Positions 1-19,405 of a DNA stretch of 19,405 nt are shown piece by piece (position 1 is the stretch's first letter; every line of letters begins with the position of its first letter). Below the pieces are notes generated by a model that saw only the letters and a list, made by a program, of their open reading frames with translations, was not told the origin of the DNA and did not search any database. The DNA comes from Caldifarciminota bacterium (GTDB lineage: Bacteria > Hydrothermota > Hydrothermia > LBFQ01 > DSFT01), in NCBI GenBank assembly GCA_025060695.1, contig JANXBH010000020.1, positions 1 through 19,405 of the forward strand, written 5' to 3'. The translations under genes were made by a program, and so were the position numbers.

Positions 1-364
1 ATCCAATATCAAATACTTTATTTTCCTCCGAAAGCTCTTTAAATAGTTGTATCAATACCGCACTTGGACCTTTCATATCAAACGAACCCCTACCTTTTAA
101 TATATTGCCTTCAATTTTGGGCTCAAACAAGTCCTCACTTGCATCTACCACATCTAAATGACCAACAAAGAAAATCTTAGGTTTTTTAGTATCCTTAAAT
201 AGTACTACAAGTGAGTGTTTTTGATTTTTTTCATACCTTTTAATTATTAAATTTTTATTTTTGAGATAGTTTTCAACAAAATCCACTATATTTTTTAGTT
301 CGTATGGATTTTGCGCAACCGTTTTAAATTTAATAAGTTCAATTAATAGACTTTTTATATTCAT
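1..364 (-). CDS. M20-family metallopeptidase (DapE/ArgE/CPG2-like), 5' part only
   Basis: The reverse strand is open from an ATG at 362-364 to the window edge, giving about 121 N-terminal residues. M20 enzymes are dizinc amidohydrolases that remove acyl groups or cleave dipeptides (succinyl-diaminopimelate, acetylornithine, peptides). The zinc-site signatures are visible: GHLDVV, with the metal ligand His69 and the following Asp71, and GRGSFDMKG with the bridging Asp96. The dimerisation domain and the remaining ligands lie outside the window, so the substrate cannot be assigned. The gene is divergent from nuoH, with 52 bp between the start codons. A one-mismatch copy of the window's start-associated motif (CTTTAAACTTT, 372-382) lies 7 bases before the ATG, and there is no Shine-Dalgarno sequence. 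Confidence 0.85.
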   Translation of the reverse strand, partial: MNIKSLLIELIKFKTVAQNPYELKNIVDFVENYLKNKNLIIKRYEKNQKHSLVVLFKDTKKPKIFFVGHLDVVDASEDLFEPKIEGNILKGRGSFDMKGPSAVLIQLFKELSEENKVFDIG

Positions 365-371
365 TAATAGA

Positions 372-382
372 AAAGTTTAAAG
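372..382 (-). promoter_or_regulatory. Start-proximal promoter-like element of the M20 peptidase gene
   Basis: On the reverse strand this reads CTTTAAACTTT and ends 7 bases before the ATG. It matches the window-wide CYTTAAAATTT element with one mismatch. The core TAAACT would be a -10 hexamer, placing the transcription start at or near the start codon. No TTGACA-like -35 box is evident. Confidence 0.5.
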
Positions 383-399
383 CAACTTAGAAACTATAG

Positions 400-410
400 C
401 TTTAAAATTT
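400..410 (+). promoter_or_regulatory. Start-proximal promoter-like element of nuoH
   Basis: An exact CTTTAAAATTT ends 6 bases before the nuoH ATG. No Shine-Dalgarno sequence lies between. The -10-like core is TAAAAT at 403-408. It is one of ten such sites in the window, all just before start codons. Confidence 0.6.
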
Positions 411-416
411 CCACCT

Positions 417-1478
417 ATGCTACTAACTCTTGTAATCTTACCAATAATAATCTTTGTAATAGCTTTTGGAATATTCTTTGTTTTTAGCTTCATACTTTCA
501 CACTTTACTAACTTTTACATTAAGAGTTTTTTAGAACTATTGGTAATATTAATAGCTGCTCCAATATCCGCAATTTTAGTAATATATACTGAAAGAAAAT
601 TTGCAGCAAGACTACACTCAAGAATAGGTCCTTATCTTGTAGGAAGACCTCATGGATATTTACAGCTTGTAGCGGATGCTCTAAAAATGCTAATGAAAGA
701 GGATAGTATACCAAAACAAGCTGACAAGTTCATTTTTAATTTATCACCAATTATATTTACCGCATCAAGTATTTTAGCATTCTCAGTAATACCTCTATCT
801 GAAAAAGTAGTATTTATAAATTGGGATTTAGCAATATTATTTTTACTTGCCGTAGGTTCAATACCTATTATTTCAAGCACACTTGCAGGTTGGTCGTCCA
901 ATTCAAAGTATCCTATGATTTCCGCAATTAGAACAGCAGGAGTTCTTTTGGCATATGAAATTCCACTTGTTTTATCTATATTATCAATAGCAGTTTTAGC
1001 TAATAGTTTTAACTTAATTGAAATAGTTAAAGCACAAAGTAATATGCCATTTATACTTATTCCAATTATTGGACAGATTTCATTTATAGTGTTTTTACTA
1101 TGTGCTCTTGCTGAAACTAACAAAGCACCATTTGATATTTCAGAGGCTGAAAGTGAGCTTGTTTCAGGAGTAAATGTAGAATACTCGGGCATGAAATTTG
1201 GACTATTTTACCTTGGAGAATATTTATTTACTGTAGTTAACTCGCTATTAATTACACTACTATTTCTCGGAGGGTGGCATGGACCAAAGTTTTTACCTGA
1301 TTGGGCGTGGACTATATTAAAAGCATATTTTGTATACTTACTTTTGCTTTTAATTAGATGGAGTTATATGCGTCTTAGATTGGACCAACTTATAGAACTA
1401 TCTTGGAAATGGTTAATTCCAATATCTTTTGTAAATTTAATACTTGCAATTTTGTATAGGCTATATATAGGAGGATAG
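417..1478 (+). CDS. nuoH: NADH-quinone oxidoreductase subunit H (complex I membrane subunit)
   Basis: 353 residues with about eight or nine hydrophobic segments. NuoH (ND1) sits in the membrane arm at the junction with the peripheral arm and forms part of the quinone chamber. Hallmarks are ERKFAARLHSRIGP (59-72), a quinone-site loop with ADALKMLMKED, ETNKAPFD (233-240) and EAESELVSGVNVEYSG (243-258), and the late RLRLDQLIELSWKWLIP segment. Length fits the family, with a somewhat long hydrophobic N-terminus. No other nuo gene is adjacent: upstream is a divergent peptidase, and downstream, 3 bases on, is a CvpA-family gene. Related HyfD/EchB-type hydrogenase subunits share the fold, but the conserved ETNKAPFD and EAESELVSG motifs favour complex I. 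Confidence 0.93.
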   Translation: MLLTLVILPIIIFVIAFGIFFVFSFILSHFTNFYIKSFLELLVILIAAPISAILVIYTERKFAARLHSRIGPYLVGRPHGYLQLVADALKMLMKEDSIPKQADKFIFNLSPIIFTASSILAFSVIPLSEKVVFINWDLAILFLLAVGSIPIISSTLAGWSSNSKYPMISAIRTAGVLLAYEIPLVLSILSIAVLANSFNLIEIVKAQSNMPFILIPIIGQISFIVFLLCALAETNKAPFDISEAESELVSGVNVEYSGMKFGLFYLGEYLFTVVNSLLITLLFLGGWHGPKFLPDWAWTILKAYFVYLLLLLIRWSYMRLRLDQLIELSWKWLIPISFVNLILAILYRLYIGG

Positions 1479-1481
1479 GAC

Positions 1482-1943
1482 ATGAGTGGTATTGATATAA
1501 TTATTCTTATTCTTATAGCCTTTGGACTACTAAATGGTTTAAAAAGTGGTTTTGTTTCAGAACTGATTGCACTCATTTCACTTATTTTAGCAATATTTCT
1601 TTCATTAAATCTTTACGGAGTTCTTATGCCATATTTGAAAAATGAAGTTTTTTCCATTGTAGGAATGTTTATAATAGTATATTTTTCAAGCCAATTCATT
1701 TTAAATCTTGTAGCTAAACCATTTAAAATAGCAATGGGAGGTACTGTAGTTAATAAAATTCTTGGAAGTATCTTAGGCGCGATTGAAATGGCTCTATTTG
1801 TAAGTGTATTAGCTTATTTTATTCGTTGGTCAAACTTTTATGCTCAATTTTCGCAAAATAGTAAAGTTCTTAAATTAATAGAAGAAAGAACATTTCCAAT
1901 ATACGAGAAGATATTTAAGAAAGATGAAAGAAATAATACTTAG
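1482..1943 (+). CDS. CvpA-family integral membrane protein
   Basis: 153 residues with about four hydrophobic helices (roughly 5-20, 25-55, 60-80 and 95-120) and a charged C-terminal tail. The opening, a DIIILILIAFGLLNGLKSG-like stretch followed by FVSELIALISLILAIFLSL, is the standard CvpA-family pattern. Family members include E. coli CvpA, needed for colicin V production and envelope homeostasis; the molecular activity is not settled. The start has a good Shine-Dalgarno site (GGAGG, 1470-1474) and lies 3 bases after the nuoH stop, so it is likely cotranscribed and translated by internal initiation. It overlaps the next small gene by 20 bases. Confidence 0.85.
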   Translation: MSGIDIIILILIAFGLLNGLKSGFVSELIALISLILAIFLSLNLYGVLMPYLKNEVFSIVGMFIIVYFSSQFILNLVAKPFKIAMGGTVVNKILGSILGAIEMALFVSVLAYFIRWSNFYAQFSQNSKVLKLIEERTFPIYEKIFKKDERNNT

Positions 1944-2085
1944 CTTTTTTACAGGATTTATTACTGGACTTTTGTTTTCTTTATTAAAGCTACCAATTCC
2001 CGCACCACCGAATATTGCAGGTATTATGGGAATAGTAGGTATATTTGCAGGTTATTTTTTCTATACATTCGTATTTAAAAAATAG
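1924..2085 (+). CDS. XapX-domain (DUF1427) small membrane protein
   Basis: A 53-residue frame starts at an ATG inside the last codons of the CvpA gene (20-base overlap). The protein begins MKEIILSFFTGFITGLLFSL, continues LLKLPIPAPPNIAGIMGIVG, then a second hydrophobic stretch and a short basic end. A glycine-rich helix, a KLPIPAPP turn and a second GIVGIFAGY helix are the XapX pattern: two short transmembrane helices around a conserved proline loop. Family function is unknown. Its 3' end overlaps the 3' end of purA on the other strand by 11 bases (2075-2085). It is easily missed because of its size and the double overlap. Confidence 0.85.
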   Translation: MKEIILSFFTGFITGLLFSLLKLPIPAPPNIAGIMGIVGIFAGYFFYTFVFKK

Positions 2086-3277
2086 TTATTTCATCTCTAT
2101 TCAACCCATATGAGACATATTTAATCTTTCTATTTAGATAGCTTTCAATAAAACTTATAAATTCACTTGCACCTTTGAAATTATCAAATCCTTTAAATTT
2201 CTTATAAACTGGCTTTACACTTTCCAAATTATATAAAATAGGAAAGTCCAATATTCTTCCATTGTATTCGTAAGCAACGCAAACGTTTATTTCTTTGAGT
2301 CCAAATAATACATCAAGCTTCGTTAGTACGAGTTCATGAATATCATTTAAAAAAACAGCATATTTTAACAATACTAAGTCAAGCCATCCACATCTTCTCG
2401 GTCTTCCAGTAGTAGAACCATATTCATTTCCTACATTTCTTAAATAATCACCTATTTCATCGTTTAGCTCCGTAGGGAATGGACCCTTACCAACCCTTGT
2501 AGTATAAGCCTTAAATACACCAATATTTTTATTTACCATACTCATAGGAATTCCTAAATTTATTCCTATTGAAGAGACTATAGTATGAGAACTTGTAACA
2601 AACGGATATGTGCCAAAGTTTATATCTAACAGTGTTCCCTGTGCCCCTTCAAATATTATACCTTCTTTTTGGTTCATTATTTCATATTGCACATCCGCAC
2701 TATGCTCTTTTAAGAATTTTCTAAAGTTTAAGAGATATTCATATACCTCATCAAAATCTATCATTTTTTCCTTATAACCATAAACTAATACACTATTGAA
2801 CTTATAGCTTCTTTCAAGTGCCCTTCTTAGCCTTTTTTCGTCAAGAATATCAAAAACCCTAACACCTACTCTTGCATACTTATCCCTATACGCCTGAGAT
2901 ATCCCTTTCTTAGTGGAACCAATACCATCCAATTTTTCCTCATATTCATCCTCCAAAATATGATATGGCAAAATAATATTAGCTCTATAGTCAATAAGAA
3001 GTTCAAAATTAATATCACTTAGTTGTTCTATTTCTTTTTTTAGCAGTTCAAGATTTATTACCACACCACTTCCTATTATTGCCCTTTTATTTCCCCAAAG
3101 AAGACCACTTGGTAATTGGTGAAACGTATATTTTTTATTATTTACATATACCGTATGACCAGCATTTGGACCACCTTGAAATCTAACTATAGTTCTATAG
3201 TCCTTTGCAAAATAATCTACAATTTTTCCTTTTCCCTCATCACCCCATTGAAGTCCTAATATTGATATATTTTCCAC
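2075..3277 (-). CDS. purA: Adenylosuccinate synthetase
   Basis: 400 residues. It converts IMP, aspartate and GTP to adenylosuccinate, the first committed step to AMP. The signature is clear: GLQWGDEGKGK (8-18) with catalytic Asp13 and Lys16, then QGGPNAGH with His41, the IMP-loop GIGSTKKGI, EGAQGTLLDINFGTYPFVTSS, TGRPRRCGW and TKLDVL. It is shorter than the usual 425-430 residues because surface segments are compact; no active-site motif is missing. The start is a GTG 15 bases after the stop of the upstream deacetylase-like gene. That gap is almost entirely the CCTTAAAATTT element, with no Shine-Dalgarno, so purA may have its own promoter. Confidence 0.96.
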   Translation of the reverse strand: MENISILGLQWGDEGKGKIVDYFAKDYRTIVRFQGGPNAGHTVYVNNKKYTFHQLPSGLLWGNKRAIIGSGVVINLELLKKEIEQLSDINFELLIDYRANIILPYHILEDEYEEKLDGIGSTKKGISQAYRDKYARVGVRVFDILDEKRLRRALERSYKFNSVLVYGYKEKMIDFDEVYEYLLNFRKFLKEHSADVQYEIMNQKEGIIFEGAQGTLLDINFGTYPFVTSSHTIVSSIGINLGIPMSMVNKNIGVFKAYTTRVGKGPFPTELNDEIGDYLRNVGNEYGSTTGRPRRCGWLDLVLLKYAVFLNDIHELVLTKLDVLFGLKEINVCVAYEYNGRILDFPILYNLESVKPVYKKFKGFDNFKGASEFISFIESYLNRKIKYVSYGLNRDEITIF

Positions 3278-3281
3278 AAAG

Positions 3282-3292
3282 AAATTTTAAGG
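3282..3292 (-). promoter_or_regulatory. Start-proximal promoter-like element of purA
   Basis: The reverse strand reads CCTTAAAATTT, ending 4 bases before the GTG start and beginning immediately after the TAG stop of the upstream co-oriented gene. It fills 11 of the 15 intergenic bases. Confidence 0.55.
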
Positions 3293-4174
3293 CTATAAAA
3301 AAACTTCTTTTAATACCTTTGCAGTATTAGAATGTATTTTTACTAAATCCTCAAACTTCCTGCTATATCCACCCGCTAAAACTACCACTATTGGAATTTT
3401 TCTCTCATATGCACTTTTAATTACAATTTCATCTCTTTTCTTTATTCCTTCAATAGTTAAAGATAAATTTGCAAGCATATCATCATAATATACATCAGCT
3501 CCAGCAACGTATATTATAAACTCAGGTGAAAACTTTTTAAAGATATTATCTAACGCATCAATTAATATTTTTAAGTATTCTTCATCATCTATATTCTCTT
3601 CAAGACCAATATCTAAGCTACTTTTTTCTTTTGGTATTGGATATAACCACTCTTGATGCATAGAAAATGTAAATACATTACTATCACTTCTAAATATATG
3701 TGCAGTTCCATTTCCTTGATGAACGTCTAAGTCAATTACAAGTGTTTTTAAATTTATTTTCCTAATAGCATATGCTATATCATTTAAATAGCAAAAACCT
3801 TCCGCATGGTCCTCATATGCATGATGAAAACCTCCTCCACAGTGAAAAGCATAACCATTTTCAAGTGCTAATAAACTTGCTTTGTAAGTTCCATTACATG
3901 CTAAGAGAAATAGTTCTAATATTTCTTTATTTAACGGAATTTCAGAATATGCAGTTCTTTTTGTAATTCTTAGATTTCTTAGGTCTTCTATATACTCTCT
4001 TGTATGGACTATTAGAAGTTCATCAAGTGTAATCATATCAGGCTCTAAAACCTCATCCTCCCTTAAAGTCCCTTCTTTTACAAGTTTTTCATAAACACCT
4101 CTATATTTAGTTGTTCTAAAAGGATGATTTCCAAAGTCTACTACATATTTATTACTATATACAAACCACTTCAT
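3293..4174 (-). CDS. Histone-deacetylase-superfamily amidohydrolase (AcuC/APAH-like)
   Basis: 293 residues, a complete arginase/deacetylase fold. The family removes acetyl groups from acyl-lysine, acetylpolyamines or related amides with one zinc. Visible motifs are HCGGGFHHA (catalytic His117-His118), DLDVHQGNG (zinc ligands Asp150 and His152), AGADVYYDD (third ligand Asp227) and LAGGY (Tyr270, which polarises the acetyl carbonyl). All active-site residues are therefore present and an active enzyme is likely. The substrate is unknown; in bacteria candidates include acetylated acetyl-CoA synthetase (AcuC), acetylpolyamines or other acetylamides. It precedes purA on the same strand and is divergent from rpiB, with only 26 bp between the two start codons. 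Confidence 0.9.
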   Translation of the reverse strand: MKWFVYSNKYVVDFGNHPFRTTKYRGVYEKLVKEGTLREDEVLEPDMITLDELLIVHTREYIEDLRNLRITKRTAYSEIPLNKEILELFLLACNGTYKASLLALENGYAFHCGGGFHHAYEDHAEGFCYLNDIAYAIRKINLKTLVIDLDVHQGNGTAHIFRSDSNVFTFSMHQEWLYPIPKEKSSLDIGLEENIDDEEYLKILIDALDNIFKKFSPEFIIYVAGADVYYDDMLANLSLTIEGIKKRDEIVIKSAYERKIPIVVVLAGGYSRKFEDLVKIHSNTAKVLKEVFL

Positions 4175-4178
4175 TACG

Positions 4179-4189
4179 CTTTAAAATTT
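4179..4189 (+). promoter_or_regulatory. Start-proximal promoter-like element of rpiB (half of a shared palindrome)
   Basis: An exact CTTTAAAATTT ends 11 bases before the rpiB ATG, the longest spacing seen here. There is no Shine-Dalgarno sequence between. It overlaps the element for the divergent deacetylase-like gene. Confidence 0.5.
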
Positions 4190-4194
4190 TAAAT
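4184..4194 (-). promoter_or_regulatory. Start-proximal promoter-like element of the deacetylase-like gene (half of a shared palindrome)
   Basis: The reverse strand reads ATTTAAAATTT, one mismatch from the consensus, ending 9 bases before the ATG. It overlaps the rpiB element on the other strand; the two form the perfect palindrome TTTAAAATTTTAAA at 4180-4193. Confidence 0.5.
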
Positions 4195-4200
4195 CTAAGT

Positions 4201-4656
4201 ATGAAAGTTGCAATTGGTTCAGACCATAGAGGTTATAGATTAAAGGAAGAAATAAAAGAATATTTAAATGAAATTAAAGTAGAGTTTGAAGATTTTGGTA
4301 CTTTTTCAGAAGAAAGTTATGACTATCCTGATGTTTCATTTAAATTAGCAGAGAGTGTTTCAAGAGGAATATATGAATTTGGTATTTTAATTTGTTCAAC
4401 AGGACAAGGGACAAATATTAGTGCAAATAAGGTAAAAAACATTCGTTCTGCACTTTGTCCCAATCCTACATTTGCAAGATTAGCAAGAGAACACAACAAT
4501 GCCAATATTATAACCTTACCTGCGGACTTTATTAATATTGAGGACGCGAAAACTTCTATTCTTATATTTTTAAGTGCAAAGTTTTTAGGAGGAAGACATG
4601 AAAGAAGAGTAAATAAAATAAAACTATATGAAGGAGGTAAGTATGAGAACTTATAA
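4201..4656 (+). CDS. rpiB: Ribose-5-phosphate isomerase B (RpiB/LacAB family)
   Basis: 151 residues, the normal length. It interconverts ribose 5-phosphate and ribulose 5-phosphate in the pentose-phosphate pathway. Family features are the N-terminal VAIGSDHRG (Asp8-His9 for phosphate and ring contacts), the active-site CSTGQGTNISANK with Cys65 as catalytic base, IRSALC, the REHNNANI segment with His98, and GGRHERRVNKI near the C-terminus with phosphate-binding arginines. CSTGQG departs slightly from the common CGTGIG, but Cys, Thr and Gly are kept. LacA/B-type galactose-6-phosphate isomerase or another aldose isomerase is possible but less likely for a lone gene. It is the first gene of a rightward run; its stop overlaps the next gene by 14 bases. 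Confidence 0.92.
   Translation: MKVAIGSDHRGYRLKEEIKEYLNEIKVEFEDFGTFSEESYDYPDVSFKLAESVSRGIYEFGILICSTGQGTNISANKVKNIRSALCPNPTFARLAREHNNANIITLPADFINIEDAKTSILIFLSAKFLGGRHERRVNKIKLYEGGKYENL
4632..4637 (+). promoter_or_regulatory. Shine-Dalgarno site that fixes the lipoprotein start
   Basis: AGGAGG lies 5 bases before the ATG at 4643. An upstream in-frame ATG at 4628 precedes this site and has no ribosome-binding site, so 4643 is the better start; it also puts a clean lipoprotein signal at the N-terminus. Confidence 0.8.
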
Positions 4657-5563
4657 ATATATAGTGCTAATCTTGCTTATATCATGTGGGGGAGAAAATA
4701 TAGAATGGTCAAAAGCAAAGTTAGAAGATGCTTATAGACCTTATTCAATTGAAAAAGGATTGATTGAATATAAGTATTCGGGAGAAGAAGAAGGCAAGGA
4801 AACTGTTATTTTTAAGGATTGGGGACATTGGCAAGTAAGGATAAAGGAAACCCAGTCTCAAAACGTGCCAAGAAAGAGATTTGAACTTATAACACCATCA
4901 GAAATAGTAAGCTATCAATCCACATGTAAATGCTTGCAATATAAAATTGTAAAGGAAGGAGATGAAAATAAAGGAGTTTATTACTACGATACAACGAATG
5001 GGGAGTACGTTCAGGGAAATCCTTATTGTATAAAACAGAAGAAAGAAGTAAGAGAAATTGGTGGTATAAGACAGCTTACCTGCGTAGAATATGACTGGGA
5101 AGGCTCAATAAGACCAAATGCTATGTACTACGTTCTTCTTTCAGTATGGGACACTGCATCACCTAAAACAAAACAAAAACTTGGTCCTCTTATGAGACAA
5201 TTTGCAAAAGAGATGTCCATAGGATTTATATATGCATCCGCTATAGTTGAAATGCCCACTAAAAAGGATATCGCTGGCAAAAAAACAACATTTTATAAAG
5301 TTCAAAACAGAGACGTAAGGCTATTTATTTGGAATAATATAATTCTTGGAAGTGAAGTAATAAGCGAAGCCGGTAAGAAAATAATAGTAGAAGCTATAAA
5401 AGTAGACGAAAATCCTAAGATAACTGACGAAACATTCAACATACCACCAGATTTCCCCCATCCTGTAAAATACGATACAACTTCTCTTATATTTAAAAGA
5501 GAAAAGAATTTAGCACAGCAGCTTATAAACATTTATCTCTCGGAAAAGGGAGGCGGAATGTAA
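4643..5563 (+). CDS. Lipoprotein of unknown function, upstream of the polysaccharide tyrosine kinase
   Basis: 306 residues. A short type II signal peptide ends in a lipobox: MRTYKYIVLILLIS-C, with L12-I13-S14-Cys15 followed by Gly-Gly, so the protein should be lipid-anchored; there is no Asp at +2 to suggest inner-membrane retention. The mature part has four further cysteines (95, 97, 129 and 147), including a CKC pair, which could form disulfides outside the cytoplasm. I do not recognise the domain; predominantly beta-prone hydrophilic sequence follows. The start overlaps the rpiB end by 14 bases and its stop lies 3 bases before the kinase gene, so it is probably cotranscribed with both. A role in exopolysaccharide export beside the Wzz-type kinase is only inferred from position. 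Confidence 0.8.
   Translation: MRTYKYIVLILLISCGGENIEWSKAKLEDAYRPYSIEKGLIEYKYSGEEEGKETVIFKDWGHWQVRIKETQSQNVPRKRFELITPSEIVSYQSTCKCLQYKIVKEGDENKGVYYYDTTNGEYVQGNPYCIKQKKEVREIGGIRQLTCVEYDWEGSIRPNAMYYVLLSVWDTASPKTKQKLGPLMRQFAKEMSIGFIYASAIVEMPTKKDIAGKKTTFYKVQNRDVRLFIWNNIILGSEVISEAGKKIIVEAIKVDENPKITDETFNIPPDFPHPVKYDTTSLIFKREKNLAQQLINIYLSEKGGGM
5549..5553 (+). promoter_or_regulatory. Possible Shine-Dalgarno site for the TTG-started kinase gene
   Basis: GGAGG lies 13 bases before the proposed TTG start at 5567, a rather long spacing. It falls in the Gly-Gly-Gly-Met end of the lipoprotein gene. No ATG or GTG in the kinase frame is better placed near the start of homology. Confidence 0.45.
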
Positions 5564-5566
5564 ACT

Positions 5567-8453: not shown

Positions 8454-9375
8454 TATCTAAAACTTCCCTTAAAAGTTCATATGGACTTTTCTTTGAAATA
8501 AAACCATTTTCTAATATTTTGTTTACATCTACCTTTGAAACAAAGGTTTCCCATAGTTTTTCCTTGGCAAGTTCTTTAAACTCTTCATAATACCTCTCTT
8601 TTCTCATTTTTTCCAATCTTCTATTTGCTCTTATATATTCTTTATGTTTTAGTATTGCACTATATATCTCATCTATCCCAATACCTCTGACTGCACTAGA
8701 TTTAATAATTATGGGTTTCCAATTCTTATCTTTAGTACTAAAGCCCATATCAACAGCAGTTTTCAAATCCATATAGAATCTATCCGCACCTTCTCTATCT
8801 GATTTATTTATTACAAATATATCTGCAATTTCTATTAATCCTGCTTTCATAGCTTGTATTCCATCTCCTGACTCAGGCACAAGTATTACTATAACTGTAT
8901 CTGATGCTTTTATTATATCAAGCTCTATCTGACCAACTCCTACTGTTTCTATAAATATTGGGTCAAAGCCAAATGCATCGCACACATCAACTACAGAAAT
9001 AGTAGTTTTTGCAATACCTCCAAGACTTCCTCTACTTGCCATACTTCTGATATATATACCTTCATTAGTGGCTTCCATCATTCTAAATCTATCTCCAAGC
9101 AAAGCACCACCTGAAAAAGGAGAAGATGGATCAACCGCTACTACTGATGGATTATAACCCTGCTTTTTAAAATATACAGACAACTTATTTATTAGTGTAG
9201 ATTTTCCAGCACCTGGTGGTCCTGTAATTCCAATTCTATGTGCATTTCCTATATTCTTGTAAATCTCAGAGAGTATAATTTCCGTATCAATGTTATTTTC
9301 TACTCTTGTAATAATTTTAGAAAGTGCAATTCTATCTTTACTTTTAAACTTTTCAAGTATTTCTATTGTGTGCAT
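8431..9375 (-). CDS. meaB: MeaB/ArgK-family GTPase, methylmalonyl-CoA mutase chaperone
   Basis: 314 residues. G3E-family GTPases of this type protect adenosylcobalamin-dependent methylmalonyl-CoA mutase and help load its cofactor. The P-loop is GPPGAGKST (52-60); next come AVDPSSPFSGGALLGDR, the switch-region RSMASRGSLGG, ETVGVGQIE and the base-recognition NKSD. The C-terminal helices (KMRKERYYEEFKELAKEKLW) match the family dimerisation arm. No mutase gene is present here; sucC elsewhere in the window would act on the succinyl-CoA that pathway makes, but that link is inference. The gene overlaps orf203 by 23 bases. A CTTTAAAATTT element inside the orf203 end suggests an extra internal promoter. 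Confidence 0.93.
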   Translation of the reverse strand: MHTIEILEKFKSKDRIALSKIITRVENNIDTEIILSEIYKNIGNAHRIGITGPPGAGKSTLINKLSVYFKKQGYNPSVVAVDPSSPFSGGALLGDRFRMMEATNEGIYIRSMASRGSLGGIAKTTISVVDVCDAFGFDPIFIETVGVGQIELDIIKASDTVIVILVPESGDGIQAMKAGLIEIADIFVINKSDREGADRFYMDLKTAVDMGFSTKDKNWKPIIIKSSAVRGIGIDEIYSAILKHKEYIRANRRLEKMRKERYYEEFKELAKEKLWETFVSKVDVNKILENGFISKKSPYELLREVLDNENHIRK

Positions 9376-9964
9376 CTAATAAAAATTTTAAAGTTTGATG
9401 AAATATTATTCTTTCATAAATAAGCTTTACTCTCTCTTCGTTTATATTTTTCTCTCTTATTAGTGCTTTTCCGTCCTTAAAGAGTACAATTGATAGCCCA
9501 TCACATTTTAAAGTCAAAGATATTGGATTTAAAATTTTTTCACAATTTTCAATACGATCAATAATTTCATTAAAATCCATATCTATTGAATTTATCATAT
9601 AAACATGTGCTGTATCATTTCCACAAAGTACTTGAACTTTATAAGGAATTTTAATTTTTAATTGATTCTGAGAAGGCTTCATTTTTGAAACCTCTCCATT
9701 TTTTATATATGTTCCTATCTCTGAGTCTTTTATAAAAAACTCGATATCCTCCTGACTAATTTCATATCTATCAAAAAAGCTAATTTTATGATAAAACTCC
9801 TTAAGTTCATCAATAATTGAGCTTAAATTATATTCCTTTGAAAACTTTCCAAGTAAATATTGATCACCATTTAAAAACAGAAAAATACCTATCTCGTTAT
9901 TTTCAAGAATAAGCTCATTGTCCAAAAATTTACTAAAAATATCTGGTTTTAGATTAATTATCAT
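9353..9964 (-). CDS. Uncharacterised protein (orf203) between lysS and meaB
   Basis: 203 residues, not recognised as a known family overall. It starts with ATGA overlapping the lysS stop (9961-9964) and overlaps meaB by 23 bases, so it is firmly embedded in the operon and coding. There is no signal peptide or membrane helix, so it is probably cytosolic. The N-terminal half is acidic (EIGIFLFLNGDQYLLGKFSK, then DELKEFYHKISFFDRYEISQ). The C-terminal part, CDGLSIVLFKDGKALIREKN followed by INEERVKLIYERII, loosely resembles the short tail domain that follows the catalytic domain of MoeB/ThiF-type E1-like proteins (FxDGRAIIxGTxD...AxxxYxRYI). That resemblance is from memory and weak. No adenylation motif or zinc-binding cysteine pairs are present. 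Function unknown. Confidence 0.75.
   Translation of the reverse strand: MIINLKPDIFSKFLDNELILENNEIGIFLFLNGDQYLLGKFSKEYNLSSIIDELKEFYHKISFFDRYEISQEDIEFFIKDSEIGTYIKNGEVSKMKPSQNQLKIKIPYKVQVLCGNDTAHVYMINSIDMDFNEIIDRIENCEKILNPISLTLKCDGLSIVLFKDGKALIREKNINEERVKLIYERIIFHQTLKFLLDAHNRNT
9383..9393 (-). promoter_or_regulatory. Promoter-like element before meaB, inside the orf203 coding end
   Basis: The reverse strand reads an exact CTTTAAAATTT ending 7 bases before the meaB ATG. It encodes Thr-Leu-Lys-Phe of orf203, so it could be chance coding sequence; the spacing matches the other sites. Confidence 0.4.
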
Positions 9965-11439
9965 TTTGGTCTTAATTGTGGAAATGGAATAATATCTCTA
10001 ATTGATGGTTTATCTAACAGAATCATACAAATTCTGTCAATTCCAAAACCAATACCTCCCGTAGGTGGCATAGCGTACTCTAAGGCGTTTATAAAGTCTT
10101 CGTCTATTTCAGATGGGAGTTCTTTATCTTGACTATATTCTCTTAGCTTTATCTGTTCTTCAAGTCTTATTCTTTGTTCTATTGGATCATTTAACTCACT
10201 AAATGCATTAGATATTTCAAGACCTGCTAAAAATATTTCAAATCTTTCAGCTCTTTTTTTGTTTTCCCTATGTGTTTTAGCAAGTGGTGATAATTCTATT
10301 GGATGATTCATAACTATAGTAGGTTGAATAAGTTTTCTACCTACAAGCTCATCAAATAGCTTATCTATTATTTTCCATTTATGAAGTTTTTCAACATTTT
10401 GAATATACTTTTTTGACTTTTCTCTCAACGTTTCTAATTCTTCCTCAGTTGGATCAAATCCAAGGACTTTAATAAGTTCTTCTACAAAATCTACTCTTTT
10501 AAATGGTAATCTAAAGGATATTGTATTTCCTTGATATTCAATTTCCTCGCTATTGTAGAGATTTTTAATTAAAAAGTTTAAATATTCTTCAGCAAGTTTC
10601 ATCATATCGTAATAGTCCCAATATGCACTATACGCTTCCATTGCAATAAACTCAGGATAGTGAGTTCTATCTATTCCCTCATTTCTAAAATTCTTAGTAA
10701 TTTCGTATACCTTTTCAAATCCACCTACAATCAGTCTTTTTAAATATAGTTCATTCGCTATTCTTAAGTATAGTTTGGTTTCTAAAGAATGAGAGTAGGT
10801 TTCAAATGGATTCGCATTTGCCCCACCATAAATAGGTTGTAAAGTGGGCGTATCTATTTCAATAAATCCTTTATCTTCAAAAAATTTCCTTGTCAATTTA
10901 ATAATTAGAAACTTTTTTCTAAATGCATCTATTGCTCTTTTATCCATTATTAAATGCAAATATCTTTCTCTATATTGTGTTTCTAAGTCCTTTAGACCAT
11001 GCCACTTATCTCCAAGTGGCAAGAGACACTTTGATAGCATTTTAAATCTTCTTACAAAAATAGTAATCTCTCCTGTTTTCGTTTTAAACAACTCTCCCTC
11101 AACTCCTATTATATCTCCAACATCAAAGAACTTATCAAAAGATTTTGCAGTATTTTCTATATCATGAAAAGGATTTTCAGTTTCTACTGTTTTTATATAA
11201 ATTTGAATATCATCAGTCTCATCCCTAAGTGTTGCAAAGACACTTTTTCCCATCATTCTTACACTTACAATTCTTCCTGCAAACTTTATTAATTTTCCAG
11301 TTAATTCATCGAACTTTTCTTTTATTTCACTTGCCCTATATTCTTTTTCAAATTTATACTCATACGGCTCAATATTTCTACTTCTTAATTCTTGAATTTT
11401 CCTTAACCTTAAATAATATTCCTCTGGTTTATTTGACAT
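9961..11439 (-). CDS. lysS: Lysyl-tRNA synthetase, class II
   Basis: 492 residues, the usual length. It charges tRNA-Lys using ATP. The N-terminal OB-fold anticodon-binding domain spans about 50-140 (KFAGRIVSVRMMGKSVFATL and on). The class II core follows: motif 1 around 185-205, motif 2 FRNEGIDRTHYPEF (251-264) with the ATP-binding Arg, and motif 3 GGIGFGIDR (about 461-469) near the C-terminus. It is 10 bases downstream of glyS on the same strand; the CTTTAAAATTT element straddles the glyS stop codon, and there is no Shine-Dalgarno site. It ends in an ATGA overlap with orf203. Confidence 0.97.
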   Translation of the reverse strand: MSNKPEEYYLRLRKIQELRSRNIEPYEYKFEKEYRASEIKEKFDELTGKLIKFAGRIVSVRMMGKSVFATLRDETDDIQIYIKTVETENPFHDIENTAKSFDKFFDVGDIIGVEGELFKTKTGEITIFVRRFKMLSKCLLPLGDKWHGLKDLETQYRERYLHLIMDKRAIDAFRKKFLIIKLTRKFFEDKGFIEIDTPTLQPIYGGANANPFETYSHSLETKLYLRIANELYLKRLIVGGFEKVYEITKNFRNEGIDRTHYPEFIAMEAYSAYWDYYDMMKLAEEYLNFLIKNLYNSEEIEYQGNTISFRLPFKRVDFVEELIKVLGFDPTEEELETLREKSKKYIQNVEKLHKWKIIDKLFDELVGRKLIQPTIVMNHPIELSPLAKTHRENKKRAERFEIFLAGLEISNAFSELNDPIEQRIRLEEQIKLREYSQDKELPSEIDEDFINALEYAMPPTGGIGFGIDRICMILLDKPSIRDIIPFPQLRPK

Positions 11440-11444
11440 AAATT

Positions 11445-11455
11445 AAATTTTAAAG
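11445..11455 (-). promoter_or_regulatory. Start-proximal promoter-like element of lysS, overlapping the glyS stop
   Basis: The reverse strand reads an exact CTTTAAAATTT ending 5 bases before the lysS ATG. Its first six bases are the last codon and the TAA stop of glyS, so terminator, spacer and element are compressed into one sequence. Confidence 0.5.
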
Positions 11456-14636: not shown

Positions 14637-15871
14637 GTCCCTTCTCTCCAGCTTTTTAAGTATTCTTCCTGCTCTTTTGTTAGCTTATCAATTTGAATAC
14701 CTAATGACTTTAATTTCAACTCTGCAATTTTCATATCTACTTCATATGGTAAAGTATACACCTTATTTTCAAGCTTATTATTTAAAATATAGATAACCGA
14801 ATAGTATTGATTTGAAAAGCTCATGTCCATTACTTCAGCAGGATGACCTTCTGCACTTACAAGATTAACTAACCTTCCATCCGCAAGCAAGAAAATTCTT
14901 TTGTTATTCTTTAAATTGAACTGAATAACATTTTCTCTTATTTGTTCGTAGCTCTCAGATAATTCATATAGTGCTTTTTTGTTTATTTCTACATCAAAAT
15001 GACCACTATTTGCAAGAATTACTCCATCTTTTGCACTTAATAAATCTTCTTTATCTACTACATTCTTATTTCCCGTTGCAGTAATAACTATATCCGCTAT
15101 TTTTATAGCTTGATTAACAGGCATTACTTCATATCCATCGTAAAATGCTTCAAGTGCTCTAATTGGATCAATTTCCGTTATAATTACTCTTGCTCCCATA
15201 CCCTTCGCACGCATTGCAATACCCTTACCACAATATCCATAACCACAAATTACAACAACCTTTCCAGGAATAAGTATATTAGTTGCTCTTAGAATACCGT
15301 CTATAGTAGATTGACCCGTCCCATATCTATTATCAAATAAATATTTAGTTCTTGAGTCATTTACAGCAATAATTGGATATCTTAAAATATTTTCCTTTTG
15401 CATTGATTTTAGTCTAATTACACCCGTTGTAGTTTCTTCTGTCCCTCCAACTATACCATTTGTCATATTATTAATATGTGCATAACTTGTCAAATCTGCA
15501 CCATCGTCCAATGTAATATGTGGCTTAAATTCTAAACACTTATAAATATGTTCGTAATATGTAGTATTATCTTCTCCCCTAATTGCAAAAACTTCTACAT
15601 TGTAATATTTTACAAGTGCAGAAGCAATATCGTCTTGAGTAGAAAGTGGATTACTTGCACATAGTCTAACACTTGCCCCAGATTCCTTTAGTGCTATTAT
15701 TAAATTTGCAGTTTCAGCTGTAACGTGAAGACATGCGGAAATTCTTATACCATTTAGTTTATCTTTATATTCTTGCGATAACATTTTCAATACTTTCATA
15801 AAATTTCCAGACCACTCTATTCTCTTTATTCCAATATCAGCTAAGTTTATATCCTTTATGTGATACTCCAT
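14633..15871 (-). CDS. ahcY: Adenosylhomocysteinase (S-adenosyl/S-inosylhomocysteine hydrolase)
   Basis: 412 residues. It hydrolyses S-adenosylhomocysteine to homocysteine and adenosine, relieving product inhibition of methyltransferases. Substrate-domain residues are visible: SACLHVTAETA (His49), DDGADLT (Asp123), GGTEETTTGV (Glu145) and TKYLFDN (Lys176, Asp180, Asn181). The NAD-binding loop is CGYGYCGKG (209-217). The C-terminus ends in IDKLTKEQEEYLKSWREGT, close to the family standard. NRYGTGQSTIDG and the compact length mark the thermophile/archaeal subgroup. A methanogen member prefers S-inosylhomocysteine, so the exact substrate is open. It is the first gene of the seven-gene leftward run and is divergent from sucC. 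Confidence 0.96.
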   Translation of the reverse strand: MEYHIKDINLADIGIKRIEWSGNFMKVLKMLSQEYKDKLNGIRISACLHVTAETANLIIALKESGASVRLCASNPLSTQDDIASALVKYYNVEVFAIRGEDNTTYYEHIYKCLEFKPHITLDDGADLTSYAHINNMTNGIVGGTEETTTGVIRLKSMQKENILRYPIIAVNDSRTKYLFDNRYGTGQSTIDGILRATNILIPGKVVVICGYGYCGKGIAMRAKGMGARVIITEIDPIRALEAFYDGYEVMPVNQAIKIADIVITATGNKNVVDKEDLLSAKDGVILANSGHFDVEINKKALYELSESYEQIRENVIQFNLKNNKRIFLLADGRLVNLVSAEGHPAEVMDMSFSNQYYSVIYILNNKLENKVYTLPYEVDMKIAELKLKSLGIQIDKLTKEQEEYLKSWREGT

Positions 15872-15878
15872 AGATTGA

Positions 15879-15889
15879 AAATTTTAAGG
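15879..15889 (-). promoter_or_regulatory. Start-proximal promoter-like element of the ahcY run
   Basis: The reverse strand reads an exact CCTTAAAATTT ending 7 bases before the ahcY ATG. This is the only obvious initiation signal for a run of seven genes. No space exists for a SAH riboswitch or T-box leader between this and the start codon. Confidence 0.6.
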
Positions 15890-15902
15890 TTTTATAATTA
15901 TC

Positions 15903-15913
15903 CCTTAAAATTT
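15903..15913 (+). promoter_or_regulatory. Start-proximal promoter-like element of sucC
   Basis: An exact CCTTAAAATTT ends 5 bases before the sucC ATG; the -10-like core TAAAAT (15906-15911) is 7 bases from the A of the ATG, which would put transcription start on the start codon. No -35 consensus is evident. Confidence 0.6.
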
Positions 15914-15918
15914 CTGTT

Positions 15919-17058
15919 ATGAAACTTTTAGAATATCAAGCAAAGGAAGTTTTTAAAAAATACAACATGCCCGTTCCAGAGGGATATGTATGTAAAAACA
16001 TAGAAGAGGTAAATGAAAGTTTAAAAAATCTAAGTTTTCCTGTTGTAATAAAAGCACAAGTTCCTGTTGGTGGAAGAGGCAAAGCTGGAGGAGTAAAACT
16101 TGCAAATAATGATAGGGAAGCTATTGAAAAAGCAGGTAATATTTTAAATATGAGTATAAAATCAATACCAGTAAAGAAAGTTTTAATAGCAAAGGCGGTG
16201 GATATAAAGAAAGAGTTTTACATTTCTATTGCACTTGATAGAAGAATAAACAAAAGTGTAATAATTGCATCAAAAGAAGGTGGTGTAGACATTGAGGAAA
16301 TTGCAAGAACTAATCCTTCCGCAATAATAAAACATGAAATTGATCCATTTTTAGGTTTAAGGGAATATGAAGCAAGAGACATCGCTTATAGTCTTATTGA
16401 AGACAAGATTATTGCAAGTGAAATTTCAAAAATTATAAAAAGTTTATATGAGGTTTACATAGAATTAGAAGCACAACTTGCAGAAATAAATCCACTTGTA
16501 ATTGACAATCATAACAAAGTTTGGGTAGTGGATGCAAAAATTCTAACTGATGATAATGCATTATTTAGAAAGAAATTTCTTGAAGAATATAGAGATATGG
16601 ACTATGAAAATCCATATGAAATTGAAGCAAAAGCATATGGACTTTCTTTTATAAAATTGGATGGTAATATTGGTAATATGGTAAATGGAGCAGGTCTTGC
16701 AATGGCTACTATGGATATTATAAAATACTATGGAGGAGAACCTGCAAACTTTTTAGATGTAGGAGGCTCTTCAAATCCACAGAAAACAAAAAAAGCCTTA
16801 GAAATTATTCTTTCCGATAAGAATGTAAAAAGTATATTTATTAACATATTTGGAGGTATAACAAGGACTGATGATATTGCAAATGGTATTATATGGGCAT
16901 ATAAGGAAATAGAAATAAATGTTCCTGTTGTAGTAAGGTTAACTGGTACAAATGAAGAAATTGCAAAGGATATGCTAAGAAATAGTGGATTAAATTTAAT
17001 TATTGTAGATAGCATGTCAGAAGGTGCAAAAAAGGCGGTAGAGTTAGCAAGCAAATAG
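15919..17058 (+). CDS. sucC: Succinyl-CoA synthetase (succinate-CoA ligase) beta subunit
   Basis: 379 residues, normal length. With SucD it interconverts succinyl-CoA and succinate with ATP or GTP formation in the TCA cycle. The N-terminal ATP-grasp domain begins MKLLEYQAKEVFKKYNMPVP and has VIKAQVPVGGRGKAGGVKLA (nucleotide binding, Gly-rich 51-59) and AEINPLVI. The C-terminal flavodoxin-like ligase domain has LDVGGSSNPQKTKKAL, INIFGGITRTDDIANGI and VRLTGTNEEIAKDML. No sucD follows; the next gene is an outer-membrane barrel 2 bases on. Other acyl-CoA ligases (malate-CoA ligase MtkA) share this architecture, but succinyl-CoA is the more likely substrate. Confidence 0.94.
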   Translation: MKLLEYQAKEVFKKYNMPVPEGYVCKNIEEVNESLKNLSFPVVIKAQVPVGGRGKAGGVKLANNDREAIEKAGNILNMSIKSIPVKKVLIAKAVDIKKEFYISIALDRRINKSVIIASKEGGVDIEEIARTNPSAIIKHEIDPFLGLREYEARDIAYSLIEDKIIASEISKIIKSLYEVYIELEAQLAEINPLVIDNHNKVWVVDAKILTDDNALFRKKFLEEYRDMDYENPYEIEAKAYGLSFIKLDGNIGNMVNGAGLAMATMDIIKYYGGEPANFLDVGGSSNPQKTKKALEIILSDKNVKSIFINIFGGITRTDDIANGIIWAYKEIEINVPVVVRLTGTNEEIAKDMLRNSGLNLIIVDSMSEGAKKAVELASK

Positions 17059-17060
17059 TC

Positions 17061-18368
17061 TTGTTAATACACTTAATTTGCTATACTGTTGGAAAGATAG
17101 AAGTTATTACTCAGAATATATTTGAAAATGAAAAGGGGATATACAGGCTTGCAAACAAACTTCACATAAAAACTAAACCATTTGTAATATACAATACAAT
17201 TCCAATAAGGGAAGGCTCAAAAATAAGCGATACTTCTATAATTTCGGAAATAAAATCAAAACTATATTCAATGAGAATATTCTACTCTGTAGATATAAAA
17301 AGTGAAATTAGAGGAGATACTATTGACTTGAAAATTATTACTAAAGACTTATGGACACTTGGAATATATACAAATTTGGAGGGTTCAGAAAGAGATAGAA
17401 GAATCGATATAGGTTTTTCAGATTTAAACCTACTTGGTCTTGGGACATATTTTCTATCTTCAGGATTTATAAGTCCAGATGGCTCCGGATTTTATGGAGA
17501 GTTTAATACAAGCTCCATTATAAGACAAATATCATTTGGTATAAACACAAAGCTTACAAACTACGAAAAGGACTTTTTCTTCTATTCTTCAAGAGCTTCA
17601 TGGAGTAATATAAAAAGCTTTTCTTACTTCTTTTGGATAAGTAAAGATAGTTATAAAGAGAAGTCATCCGACATTGTAGGACTTAATGTCGGATATAACA
17701 TTAAAGAGCCAAGAAATGAGCCATTTATTGGATTTAGGATATATAACTATAAGAAAGGGACAGGAATTATCGGATATAAGTTTTCCAACGTAAAATATGC
17801 TTTCTTAAAGAATATAAATAGCTTTTCAAGGGATGAAATGTTTAAGTATGGTTTTGATAACTATGTTGCTTTTGGATATGGATTTTTTAATTTAAATACA
17901 AGCTATGGCTTTGTTTTTAAAAATCTGACTTCCGTTTTAAATTCAGAATTTGAAAACAATCCAAATTATAGTTATATTACTTTGTCAAATGCAATATACT
18001 ATAAGATAACTGATTTTATAACAATTGCAGGCTATCTATACCTTGGCAATATGAATATAAAAGATACGACTTCAGCTGTTGGTTTTAGAGTAGGTGGATT
18101 AATTGGTATTAGAGGAGTAAACTACTTTGAAGGCTTTTCTAATGAGATATATAGATTCTCATTAGAAATTAGAACTTATTCAAAAGAGATTTTTAGTCTT
18201 ATTGCACTTGGACCAATAGCTTTTTACGATTTTGCTTACTACGGAAAGAACATTTCAGTATATGGTATTGGTATGAGATTTCAAATTACAAGAGTCTCTG
18301 TACCTGTTATAAGAATTGACTATGCAAATAATGGAATAATTTCGTTTTCTTCAGGGCAAGCTTTTTAA
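17061..18368 (+). CDS. Small Omp85/BamA-superfamily outer-membrane protein with one POTRA domain
   Basis: 435 residues from a TTG. Omp85 proteins insert or transport proteins or lipids at the outer membrane. A single POTRA-like unit spans about 12-100: NKLHIKTKPFVIYNTIPIRE, then SEIKSKLYSMRIFYSVDIKS and ITKDLWTLGIY. The rest alternates aromatic and polar residues like a 16-stranded barrel and contains GLIGIRGVNYFEGFSNEIYR (Arg351), which looks like the conserved (V/I)RG(Y/F) loop-6 motif. The C-terminal residue is Phe, as usual for barrel insertion. The start is uncertain: only about ten hydrophobic residues precede the POTRA and no ATG is available upstream before a stop at 17010-17012, so the signal peptide looks short. 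BamA itself normally has several POTRAs, so this is probably an accessory family member. Confidence 0.8.
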   Translation: MLIHLICYTVGKIEVITQNIFENEKGIYRLANKLHIKTKPFVIYNTIPIREGSKISDTSIISEIKSKLYSMRIFYSVDIKSEIRGDTIDLKIITKDLWTLGIYTNLEGSERDRRIDIGFSDLNLLGLGTYFLSSGFISPDGSGFYGEFNTSSIIRQISFGINTKLTNYEKDFFFYSSRASWSNIKSFSYFFWISKDSYKEKSSDIVGLNVGYNIKEPRNEPFIGFRIYNYKKGTGIIGYKFSNVKYAFLKNINSFSRDEMFKYGFDNYVAFGYGFFNLNTSYGFVFKNLTSVLNSEFENNPNYSYITLSNAIYYKITDFITIAGYLYLGNMNIKDTTSAVGFRVGGLIGIRGVNYFEGFSNEIYRFSLEIRTYSKEIFSLIALGPIAFYDFAYYGKNISVYGIGMRFQITRVSVPVIRIDYANNGIISFSSGQAF

Positions 18369-18772
18369 TGCCTTATAATTTTCGCTTGTCAGTTTTACTC
18401 TTTTCAATTAGTATTGATACACTTCATCCATTTTACTATGTGGCAATAAAATATTTAGGGACAAAATATAAATATGGTGGAATGGATGAAAATGGAATGG
18501 ATTGCAGTGGATTTTTGTATAGAGTGCTTTCTGAATTTAATATAAAACCACCGAGAACTTCATTTGACTATTTAAACTTTGGAAAACCAGTTTCACTTGA
18601 CAGTGTAAAACCTGGTGATGTTCTAATTTTTAGTTTTAAGCAAGACTACGACCATGTAGGAATTTACATAGGAGACAATAAGATAATTCATGCATCAAGA
18701 AATCGAGGCGTGATAATTGAAGATTTAAAATATATTGGAAAGTATTTAAAATTAGCCAGAAGAATTTACTAA
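18368..18772 (+). CDS. NlpC/P60-family peptidoglycan hydrolase
   Basis: 134 residues, essentially one NlpC/P60 domain. These cysteine peptidases cut cell-wall stem peptides, usually between gamma-D-Glu and diaminopimelate. YGGMDENGMDCSGF contains the nucleophile Cys46, DHVGIYIGDNKIIHAS supplies His96 and the third polar residue His108, and KPGDVLIF is the standard connecting strand. The N-terminus (RLSVLLFSISIDTL) is weakly hydrophobic and may be a short signal or anchor. The ATG shares one base with the Omp85 TAA stop, so translation is coupled and both probably serve the envelope. Its 3' end overlaps pdxT on the other strand by 21 bases. Confidence 0.9.
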   Translation: MPYNFRLSVLLFSISIDTLHPFYYVAIKYLGTKYKYGGMDENGMDCSGFLYRVLSEFNIKPPRTSFDYLNFGKPVSLDSVKPGDVLIFSFKQDYDHVGIYIGDNKIIHASRNRGVIIEDLKYIGKYLKLARRIY

Positions 18773-19324
18773 TTTTAAAAAATATTCATGCAATTTTATA
18801 TCTCCTGTAATTTCAGGATGAAATGTTATGCCTATGAAATTTTCATCTTGAATACCTACCGGACGTCCATTTAATCTTGCAATTGCTTCTCCCTTATTTA
18901 CTTTTCTAATAATTGGTGCTCTAATAAAAGCTACTTTTGCCCTATGATTAAAATTGTACTCAACCTCAGCTATAAAACTCTCTCTCTGTCTTCCATATGC
19001 ATTTCTTTCAATTACTATATCTAAAAAACCATATCCAAACCCCTCTTCATCATTTAGTATCTGACTTGACATGATAATAATTCCAGCACAAGTTCCAAAA
19101 GTAGGCTTTTTATCATTTCTCCACTTAATTATTTCTTCTTCTAAGCTATAGTTTCTTATAATTTTTCTAAAAGTAGTAGATTCTCCACCAGGTATAATAA
19201 GCCCATGTATATCTTCAAAGTCTCTTTTTTCCTTTACAAATTTATAGTCAACACCAAGCTTTTTTAAAACCAACTTATGCTCTTCAAAATCTCCCTGAAT
19301 TGCTAAAATACCAATTTTTTTCAT
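18752..19324 (-). CDS. pdxT: Pyridoxal 5'-phosphate synthase glutaminase subunit
   Basis: 190 residues from the ATG at 19324. PdxT releases ammonia from glutamine and channels it to PdxS, which builds pyridoxal phosphate. Motifs are GILAIQGDFEEH, IIPGGESTT (47-52), FGTCAGI with nucleophile Cys79, ERNAYGRQRESF, FIRAPII and TFHPEIT with His169 and Glu171 completing the triad. An upstream in-frame TTG at 19330 would add two residues, but the ATG sits 5 bases after CCTTAAAATTT, matching the other starts. No pdxS is beside it on the left; the gene to its right is only a few codons long in this window and is not recognisable as pdxS. Confidence 0.95.
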   Translation of the reverse strand: MKKIGILAIQGDFEEHKLVLKKLGVDYKFVKEKRDFEDIHGLIIPGGESTTFRKIIRNYSLEEEIIKWRNDKKPTFGTCAGIIIMSSQILNDEEGFGYGFLDIVIERNAYGRQRESFIAEVEYNFNHRAKVAFIRAPIIRKVNKGEAIARLNGRPVGIQDENFIGITFHPEITGDIKLHEYFLKLVNSSG

Positions 19325-19329
19325 CTTCA

Positions 19330-19340
19330 AAATTTTAAGG
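19330..19340 (-). promoter_or_regulatory. Start-proximal promoter-like element of pdxT
   Basis: The reverse strand reads an exact CCTTAAAATTT ending 5 bases before the pdxT ATG. Its first bases are also the 3' arm of a GC-rich hairpin. Its position argues for the ATG at 19324 over the TTG at 19330. Confidence 0.6.
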
Positions 19341-19356
19341 GGCAGAACGCCCCTTA
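19336..19356 (-). terminator. GC-rich hairpin between the right-edge gene and pdxT, possible terminator
   Basis: TAAGGGGC (19336-19343) and GCCCCTTA (19349-19356) form a perfect 8-bp stem with a 5-base loop, by far the most GC-rich element in this AT-rich DNA. On the reverse strand it contains the TAA stop of the right-edge frame and runs into the AAAATTTT of the pdxT element; on the forward strand it is followed by GTTTTT. It could terminate transcription from either side, or act as an attenuator or protein site. It is the only clear intrinsic-terminator-like hairpin I saw. Confidence 0.5.
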
Positions 19357-19405
19357 GTTTTTGACAAATCTAATAATTTCTTTCCTGTTATCTAATATCA
19401 CTTCC
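19354..19405 (-). CDS. Possible C-terminal end of a gene entering from the right
   Basis: The reverse strand is open from the window edge to a TAA at 19354-19356, giving EVILDNRKEIIRFVKN. The other two reverse frames hit stops at once. The following hairpin suits a gene end. Sixteen codons are too few to identify a family. Confidence 0.35.
   Translation of the reverse strand, partial: EVILDNRKEIIRFVKN

Follow-up and report, generated by a model that had tools for sequence, protein, structure and literature searches.

Ten start codons on one bacterial contig are each preceded, at a distance of 4-11 nucleotides, by the same 11-mer, CYTTAAAATTT, which raises the question of whether this sequence is read by the RNA polymerase or by the ribosome. 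The contig (JANXBH010000020.1, 19,405 nucleotides, analysed as a whole and referred to below as the window) is contig C12 of a Caldifarciminota bacterium genome (GCA_025060695.1; labelled G000) of 1.50 Mb in 77 contigs, which is 95% complete, and the LysS protein encoded in the window has its best matches (56-68%) among proteins of candidate division WOR-3. An earlier note on this DNA preferred to read the ten sites as promoters with an extended -10 element and no clear -35, giving largely leaderless mRNAs, with a direct role in ribosome recruitment as the alternative. Re-checking the sequence showed its coordinates and strands to be correct throughout, with eight exact copies and two carrying one mismatch, and the same holds for the gaps to the start codons (7, 6, 4, 9, 11, 7, 5, 7, 5 and 5 nucleotides). 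The motif is a promoter and not a ribosome site, and it very probably serves the housekeeping (RpoD-type) sigma factor as core promoter in this WOR-3 lineage, whose first genes would mostly be leaderless.

The 11-mer is strongly overrepresented in the genome, where 426 exact copies compare with 106 copies of the reversed pattern. Placement was studied in 918 kb of the genome, analysed as stretches (61% of the total), which contain 266 exact copies where a third-order Markov model predicts 20.0. No fewer than 207 of these sit 0-12 nucleotides ahead of open reading frame (ORF) starts, with the gap between motif and start peaking at 4 (n=48), 5 (n=55), 6 (n=32) and 7 nucleotides (n=37). Another 18 copies mark the 5' ends of RNAs (16 tRNAs, the tmRNA and a TPP riboswitch), 26 precede leaders of 13-250 nucleotides and eight occupy other intergenic spots, including the 16S rRNA promoter and a position ahead of a short ORF resembling ribosomal protein L34; just seven lie inside or antisense to genes. 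The earlier note had proposed to check enrichment near starts against shuffled sequence, and for CTTTAAAATTT this enrichment is strong: it occurs 223 times in the sample, and in 150 cases an ORF of 100 or more amino acids starts 3-8 nucleotides further on, while 200 random permutations of its letters gave a mean of 7.0 copies and of 0.09 start-adjacent copies (maximum 2). In the window itself, a one-mismatch count of 21 compares with a mean of 9.7 in shuffles.

The decision between polymerase and ribosome comes from genes that are not translated. The motif, with at most one mismatch, is found 5-15 nucleotides before the mature 5' end of 21 of the 26 tRNA genes, and three of the five tRNA genes without it lie downstream in a transcript, where they follow another tRNA or belong to the rRNA operon. 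It is likewise present 26 nucleotides upstream of the tmRNA and 63 nucleotides upstream of the 16S rRNA, and on contig C10 it abuts the aptamer of the TPP riboswitch, whose gene lies far downstream and has its own AAGGAGG before the ATG. If the motif were an AT-rich site that recruits ribosomes inside an ordinary leader, this role, akin to the non-Shine-Dalgarno sites of Bacteroidetes or to an S1 site, would account for the distance of the motif from start codons, which is that of a ribosome-binding site, and for the lack of Shine-Dalgarno matches at short-gap copies (0 of 207 at gaps of 0-12 nucleotides, where there is little room for one). It would not account for the motif in front of tRNAs, tmRNA, riboswitch and 16S rRNA, where a Bacteroidetes-type site, being restricted to protein starts, is not expected. 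Copies at longer gaps are moreover often followed by a separate Shine-Dalgarno site (15 of 27 with the start within 80 nucleotides), and the 3' end of the 16S rRNA, GGATCACCTCCTTTT, carries an ordinary, intact anti-Shine-Dalgarno sequence. Because the RNA genes carry the motif and the anti-Shine-Dalgarno sequence is normal, ribosome recruitment is rejected as the main role of the motif and as an explanation is extremely unlikely.

The anatomy of the promoter was derived from an alignment of the 207 start-adjacent TTTAAAATT cores, which yields the logo RCTTTAAAATTT. Around the core, position -16 is a purine (A 58%, G 31%), -15 is C in 82% of sites and -5 is T in 91%, whereas upstream of -16 there is next to no information; T(-14) is fixed by the search core in this alignment, but tRNA promoters, which were not selected for it, have T there too. 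The hexamer TAAAAT is one base off TATAAT and has A(-11) and T(-7), as in housekeeping sigma-70 promoters. TTGACA-like matches at a spacer of 15-19 upstream of the motif show no excess over control positions, and the alignment upstream of starts recovers the -10 box and the C(-15) extension, with no -35 signal. Together with the copies at tRNAs, riboswitch and rRNA this supports the preferred reading of the earlier note, although its term 'extended -10' needs qualification: an upstream extension is conserved and a -35 would be dispensable, but the extension is C(-15) and not the classical TGn.

It is proposed that the promoter R(-16)C(-15)T(-14)T(-13)T(-12)A(-11)A(-10)A(-9)A(-8)T(-7)T(-6)T(-5) is melted by the polymerase at TAAAAT and that transcription starts about 7 nucleotides downstream of T(-7). 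The predicted +1 would fall on the start codon or up to 4 nucleotides ahead of it, such that a gap of 4 would place the start codon at +1 and gaps of 4-8 would give leaders of 0-4 nucleotides; from such a start position it follows that the first genes of operons would be leaderless or nearly so and would be translated without a Shine-Dalgarno site. Many later operon genes and many longer-leader transcripts would use ordinary Shine-Dalgarno sites. At the modal gaps of 4-7 nucleotides T(-12) sits 12-15 nucleotides before the start, which fits a TA-like signal about 10 bp upstream. The claim of largely leaderless mRNAs is supported through the spacing between motif and start, with Shine-Dalgarno sites appearing only at longer gaps. 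The genome leaves little space for anything further upstream, since divergent genes are closely spaced (median gap 55 bp) and their compact spacers have no free room for a -35 element, which would often fall in the promoter or coding sequence of the neighbour. Where two motifs face in opposite directions, a distance of 11-32 bp usually separates their starts, and four such pairs in the 918 kb form exact CTTTAAAATTTTAAAG palindromes; such overlapping sites, of which window positions 4179-4194 are an example, are candidate bidirectional promoters where one polymerase would exclude the other.

The spacing also bears on whether the motif could be a TATA/BRE box of the archaeal type. TTTAAA does resemble archaeal TATA boxes, but RNA 5' ends and start codons lie about 6-15 nucleotides from TAAAAT and not at about 26, and the genome encodes bacterial RpoD and alpha subunits, which leaves this idea with a negligible chance of being right. 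A second question is which sigma factor reads the motif. Only three sigma-like proteins were found, RpoD and two others, a three-domain protein of 292 amino acids that has the motif at the start of its own gene and one of the ECF type, either of which would lend some credit to an alternative sigma factor (or a global regulator) binding the motif in place of the housekeeping holoenzyme. The motif, however, serves tRNAs, rRNA, tRNA ligases and central metabolism, all of them housekeeping units, and pairs of the form TTGAC-N17..19-TATAAT are not enriched in this genome (5 versus 10 in the control), leaving RpoD without another obvious promoter type. An alternative sigma factor or regulator in this role is very unlikely. 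Conservation is high in region 2.3-3.0 of RpoD and extends to H455 and E458 (numbered as in E. coli RpoD, whose residues 383-612 align with the query and support the numbering; E. coli rows in the sigma and alpha alignments were entered by hand), consistent with recognition of the motif by the RpoD holoenzyme.

Several points weigh against the assignment of the motif to housekeeping transcription of mostly leaderless first genes. Of 234 divergently oriented genes, only 113 have an exact copy next to the start (the reversed control gives 12), so the statement that all genes beginning a run have the motif holds within the window and fails genome-wide, where about half lack an exact copy. For 48 of 189 motif-linked starts there is no ATG option, only TTG or GTG; starts without ATG would not be expected from what is known of leaderless translation in E. 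coli, and some starts are perhaps misassigned. Gene calls and start codons come from the authors' own hexamer scorer and are uncurated. As exact copies serve about half of the divergent first genes, the motif is the major but not the sole signal, and other or degenerate promoters exist too; the remaining first genes are probably covered in part by degenerate versions of the motif and by leadered genes.

How far this promoter type extends was followed across WOR-3 genomes, which are metagenome-assembled and possibly incomplete and were sampled at 100-360 kb each. The family of the source genome (f1) comprises G000, G001, G002 and G003, a second family of the same order (f2) comprises G004-G011, giving 12 genomes for the order, and f3-f12 are further families of the same class or phylum. 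In the f1 genomes the exact 11-mer is 4.0, 2.2, 1.9 and 2.3 times as frequent as the reversed control, and in G002, with a GC content of 51%, the tRNAs and starts that bear it stand out from the background. No consistent excess was seen outside f1 among the WOR-3 genomes compared, small counts aside, and two WOR-3 loci from another collection (L070 and L071) have no start-adjacent copy of the core; the 11-mer thus looks specific to f1. In f2 the element adjoining starts is CnnCYTTAWAATA, which is 11 to 96 times as frequent as its control in every one of the eight genomes, compared with about 0.2 to 2 times elsewhere among the genomes tabulated. Among 35 start-adjacent sites in G008 (sample L195-L201; this and the G018 sample span 129-140 kb each) C is found at -18 in 86% and at -15 in 69%, and no -35 signal was seen. 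In G012 (f3) and G018 (f4), TAWAAT boxes adjoin starts as well and are accompanied by a T-rich/TTGA signal at -24 to -20 from the first T of the box, which corresponds to a 17-bp spacer; in these small samples (36 and 40 sites) TTGACA-like matches reach 0.19 and 0.15, compared with 0-0.05 in the control. Counts of canonical TTGAC-N17..19-TATAAT pairs divide the genomes in the same way, being high in G018 (43 versus 0 in the control), G022 (96 versus 3) and G020 (49 versus 2) but not in G000. Some are kept in f2 (17 versus 1 in G006), therefore the loss of the -35 in the order is not absolute, and G001-G003 may also keep a few. Judged by these sequences, start-adjacent -10 boxes look class-wide, while the near-loss of the -35 and the C(-15) extension look order-wide, across all 12 genomes of f1 and f2.

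The polymerase of the order differs from that of its relatives in residues that could be connected with this change. Comparison of the sigma factor with sigma-70, as the earlier note had suggested, shows region 2.3-3.0 well conserved and the RERxRQ recognition helix kept. Order-specific states are H in place of Q446 in region 2.4 and, in region 4.2, A or E in place of R596, I or L in place of V582 and N in place of H600. Separately, residue T440 is I in G000 (L145) and M in its congener G001 (L146), whereas every other aligned WOR-3 relative has T. The E. coli substitution T440I suppresses a change at -12 (PMC2613000). T440I looked like the cause of the motif, but G002 and G003 use the same motif with T440, which makes it no more than a lead.

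The alpha subunit has diverged more extensively. Its C-terminal domain (alpha-CTD, Pfam PF03118) has no match in any of the eight f2 genomes, and each of the four f1 genomes gives only a weak, partial match (E 2e-4 to 5e-7), as opposed to E values of 1e-14 to 1e-24 in nearly all other genomes; three further genomes lack a match (G026, G035 and G036), and in each of them rpoA is short, partial or missing. The rpoA genes of the order are full length, which rules out loss of the domain by truncation in f2 and points to divergence. In ten aligned members of the order (L255, L253, L256, L252 and L257-L262) the turn G296-K297-K298-S299, which contacts DNA, reads PQRD or similar in G000 and G001, TLDD in G002 and G003 and SEDD or SEED in f2. 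In the same ten, R265, a residue shown to contact UP-element DNA (PMC3828302), is replaced by K or a non-polar residue. The simplest account of these sequences is that contacts with upstream DNA are no longer of value to the order, in which those made by the alpha-CTD and by sigma region 4 would be unimportant and sigma region 2/3 would read the C(-15) extension. A stand-alone CarD as helper was not found: strong PF02559 matches all lie in Mfd-like ORFs of about 400-1050 amino acids, and the ORFs with weak matches measure about 680-710.

On balance it is slightly more likely than not that the order gave up reading the upstream half of its promoters. The alpha-CTD would no longer bind DNA, sigma region 4 would have no need of a -35, specificity would reside in a C(-15) extended -10 read by sigma 2.4/3.0 and the transcription start would be locked onto the start codon; the families would then have diverged to RCTTTAAAATTT and CnnCYTTAWAATA, with the promoter set rewritten at least twice. 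The 12 genomes probably share a single event, so the link between promoter and alpha is a correlation and not proof of cause.

Leaderless bacterial genes are already known. Deinococcus-Thermus and Actinobacteria are among the groups with -10 boxes next to start codons and leaderless mRNAs (PMC3160421, PMC12340547), and leaderless transcription is predicted for 21.6% of bacterial species (PMC9581028). The TA-led leaderless genes of Zheng et al. 2011 (PMC3160421), a survey whose list is without this phylum, likewise have a -10 box directly before the start and no Shine-Dalgarno site and coexist with Shine-Dalgarno genes, and the Deinococcus -10-motif lies about 6-7 bp before the ORF (PMC12340547). 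Those signals are short TANNNT or TATAAT cores, whereas here the signal is a near-invariant 12-mer with C(-15) and no -35. In TGn extended -10 promoters of sigma-70, conserved bases just upstream of the -10 also substitute for a missing -35, but here C(-15)T(-14)T(-13) takes the place of T(-15)G(-14), and the promoter it defines predominates in the genome instead of forming one class among others. Actinobacteria and Betaproteobacteria have promoters that lack the TTG triad (PMC8407463) and mollicute promoters with little -35 are known too (PMC4245973); Mycoplasma gallisepticum shares the TAWAAT box, but its transcripts as a rule have leaders (mode near 15 nucleotides, nine leaderless transcripts) and there is no long conserved upstream extension (PMC4245973). 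The RNA polymerases of endosymbionts and Parcubacteria lack the alpha-CTD and with it the domain that reads UP elements, a proposed limit on promoter recognition (PMC8321222), while in the present order the domain is full length with its DNA-contact residues replaced, in genomes of 1.2-2.1 Mb and together with a promoter change. A search by title and abstract, with subscription journals mostly outside its coverage, found no relevant report of the 11-mer as a promoter or of leaderless WOR-3 genes, and this type of promoter, with the polymerase change linked to it, seems to be a new variant. The order offers a natural experiment in whole-genome promoter rewriting, in that relatives of the same class keep canonical -35/-10 promoters, whereas here the -35 is largely gone and recognisable alpha-CTD contacts to DNA have disappeared in parallel, which singles out particular sigma and alpha residues. 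The motif also supplies a precise rule for locating starts and operons in uncultured WOR-3 genomes, and an apparently leaderless-rich bacterium for the study of ribosome loading on leaderless mRNA.

In the window, the predicted extended -10 promoters begin with a one-mismatch copy, CTTTAAACTTT, at 372-382 on the minus strand, 7 nucleotides before the ATG at 364 of an M20-peptidase-like ORF, and an exact copy at 400-410 on the plus strand, 6 nucleotides before the nuoH ATG at 417. The predicted purA promoter is an exact copy at 3282-3292 (minus strand), 4 nucleotides before GTG 3277. At 4184-4194 (minus strand) the one-mismatch copy ATTTAAAATTT lies 9 nucleotides before ATG 4174 of a histone-deacetylase-like ORF and overlaps the predicted rpiB promoter, an exact copy at 4179-4189 (plus strand), 11 nucleotides before ATG 4201, with which it forms a near-palindrome. 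The ORF itself (3293-4174), which resembles histone deacetylases and acetoin utilisation proteins, has no NCBIfam match. Two internal promoters are predicted on the minus strand, one at 9383-9393 within the upstream ORF and 7 nucleotides before the meaB ATG at 9375, the other at 11445-11455, 5 nucleotides before the lysS ATG at 11439. The predicted ahcY promoter, an exact copy at 15879-15889 (minus strand, 7 nucleotides before ATG 15871), stands back to back with that of sucC, an exact copy at 15903-15913 (plus strand, 5 nucleotides before ATG 15919). The last predicted promoter, an exact copy at 19330-19340 (minus strand), precedes pdxT by 5 nucleotides, the start being the ATG at 19324 instead of the TTG listed at 19330. 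A tentative eleventh site, the TATAAT variant CCTTATAATTT, lies at 18371-18381 (plus strand), 4 nucleotides before TTG 18386 of an NlpC/P60-like ORF.

Two observations were made elsewhere in the genome. A tRNA-Ala with anticodon CGC closely follows the 16S rRNA gene (L051 10506-12181, contig C8), in place of the common Ile-GAT/Ala-TGC pair, and a CRISPR array with CRISPR-DR2 repeats (L058 15409-16587) reaches near a contig end.

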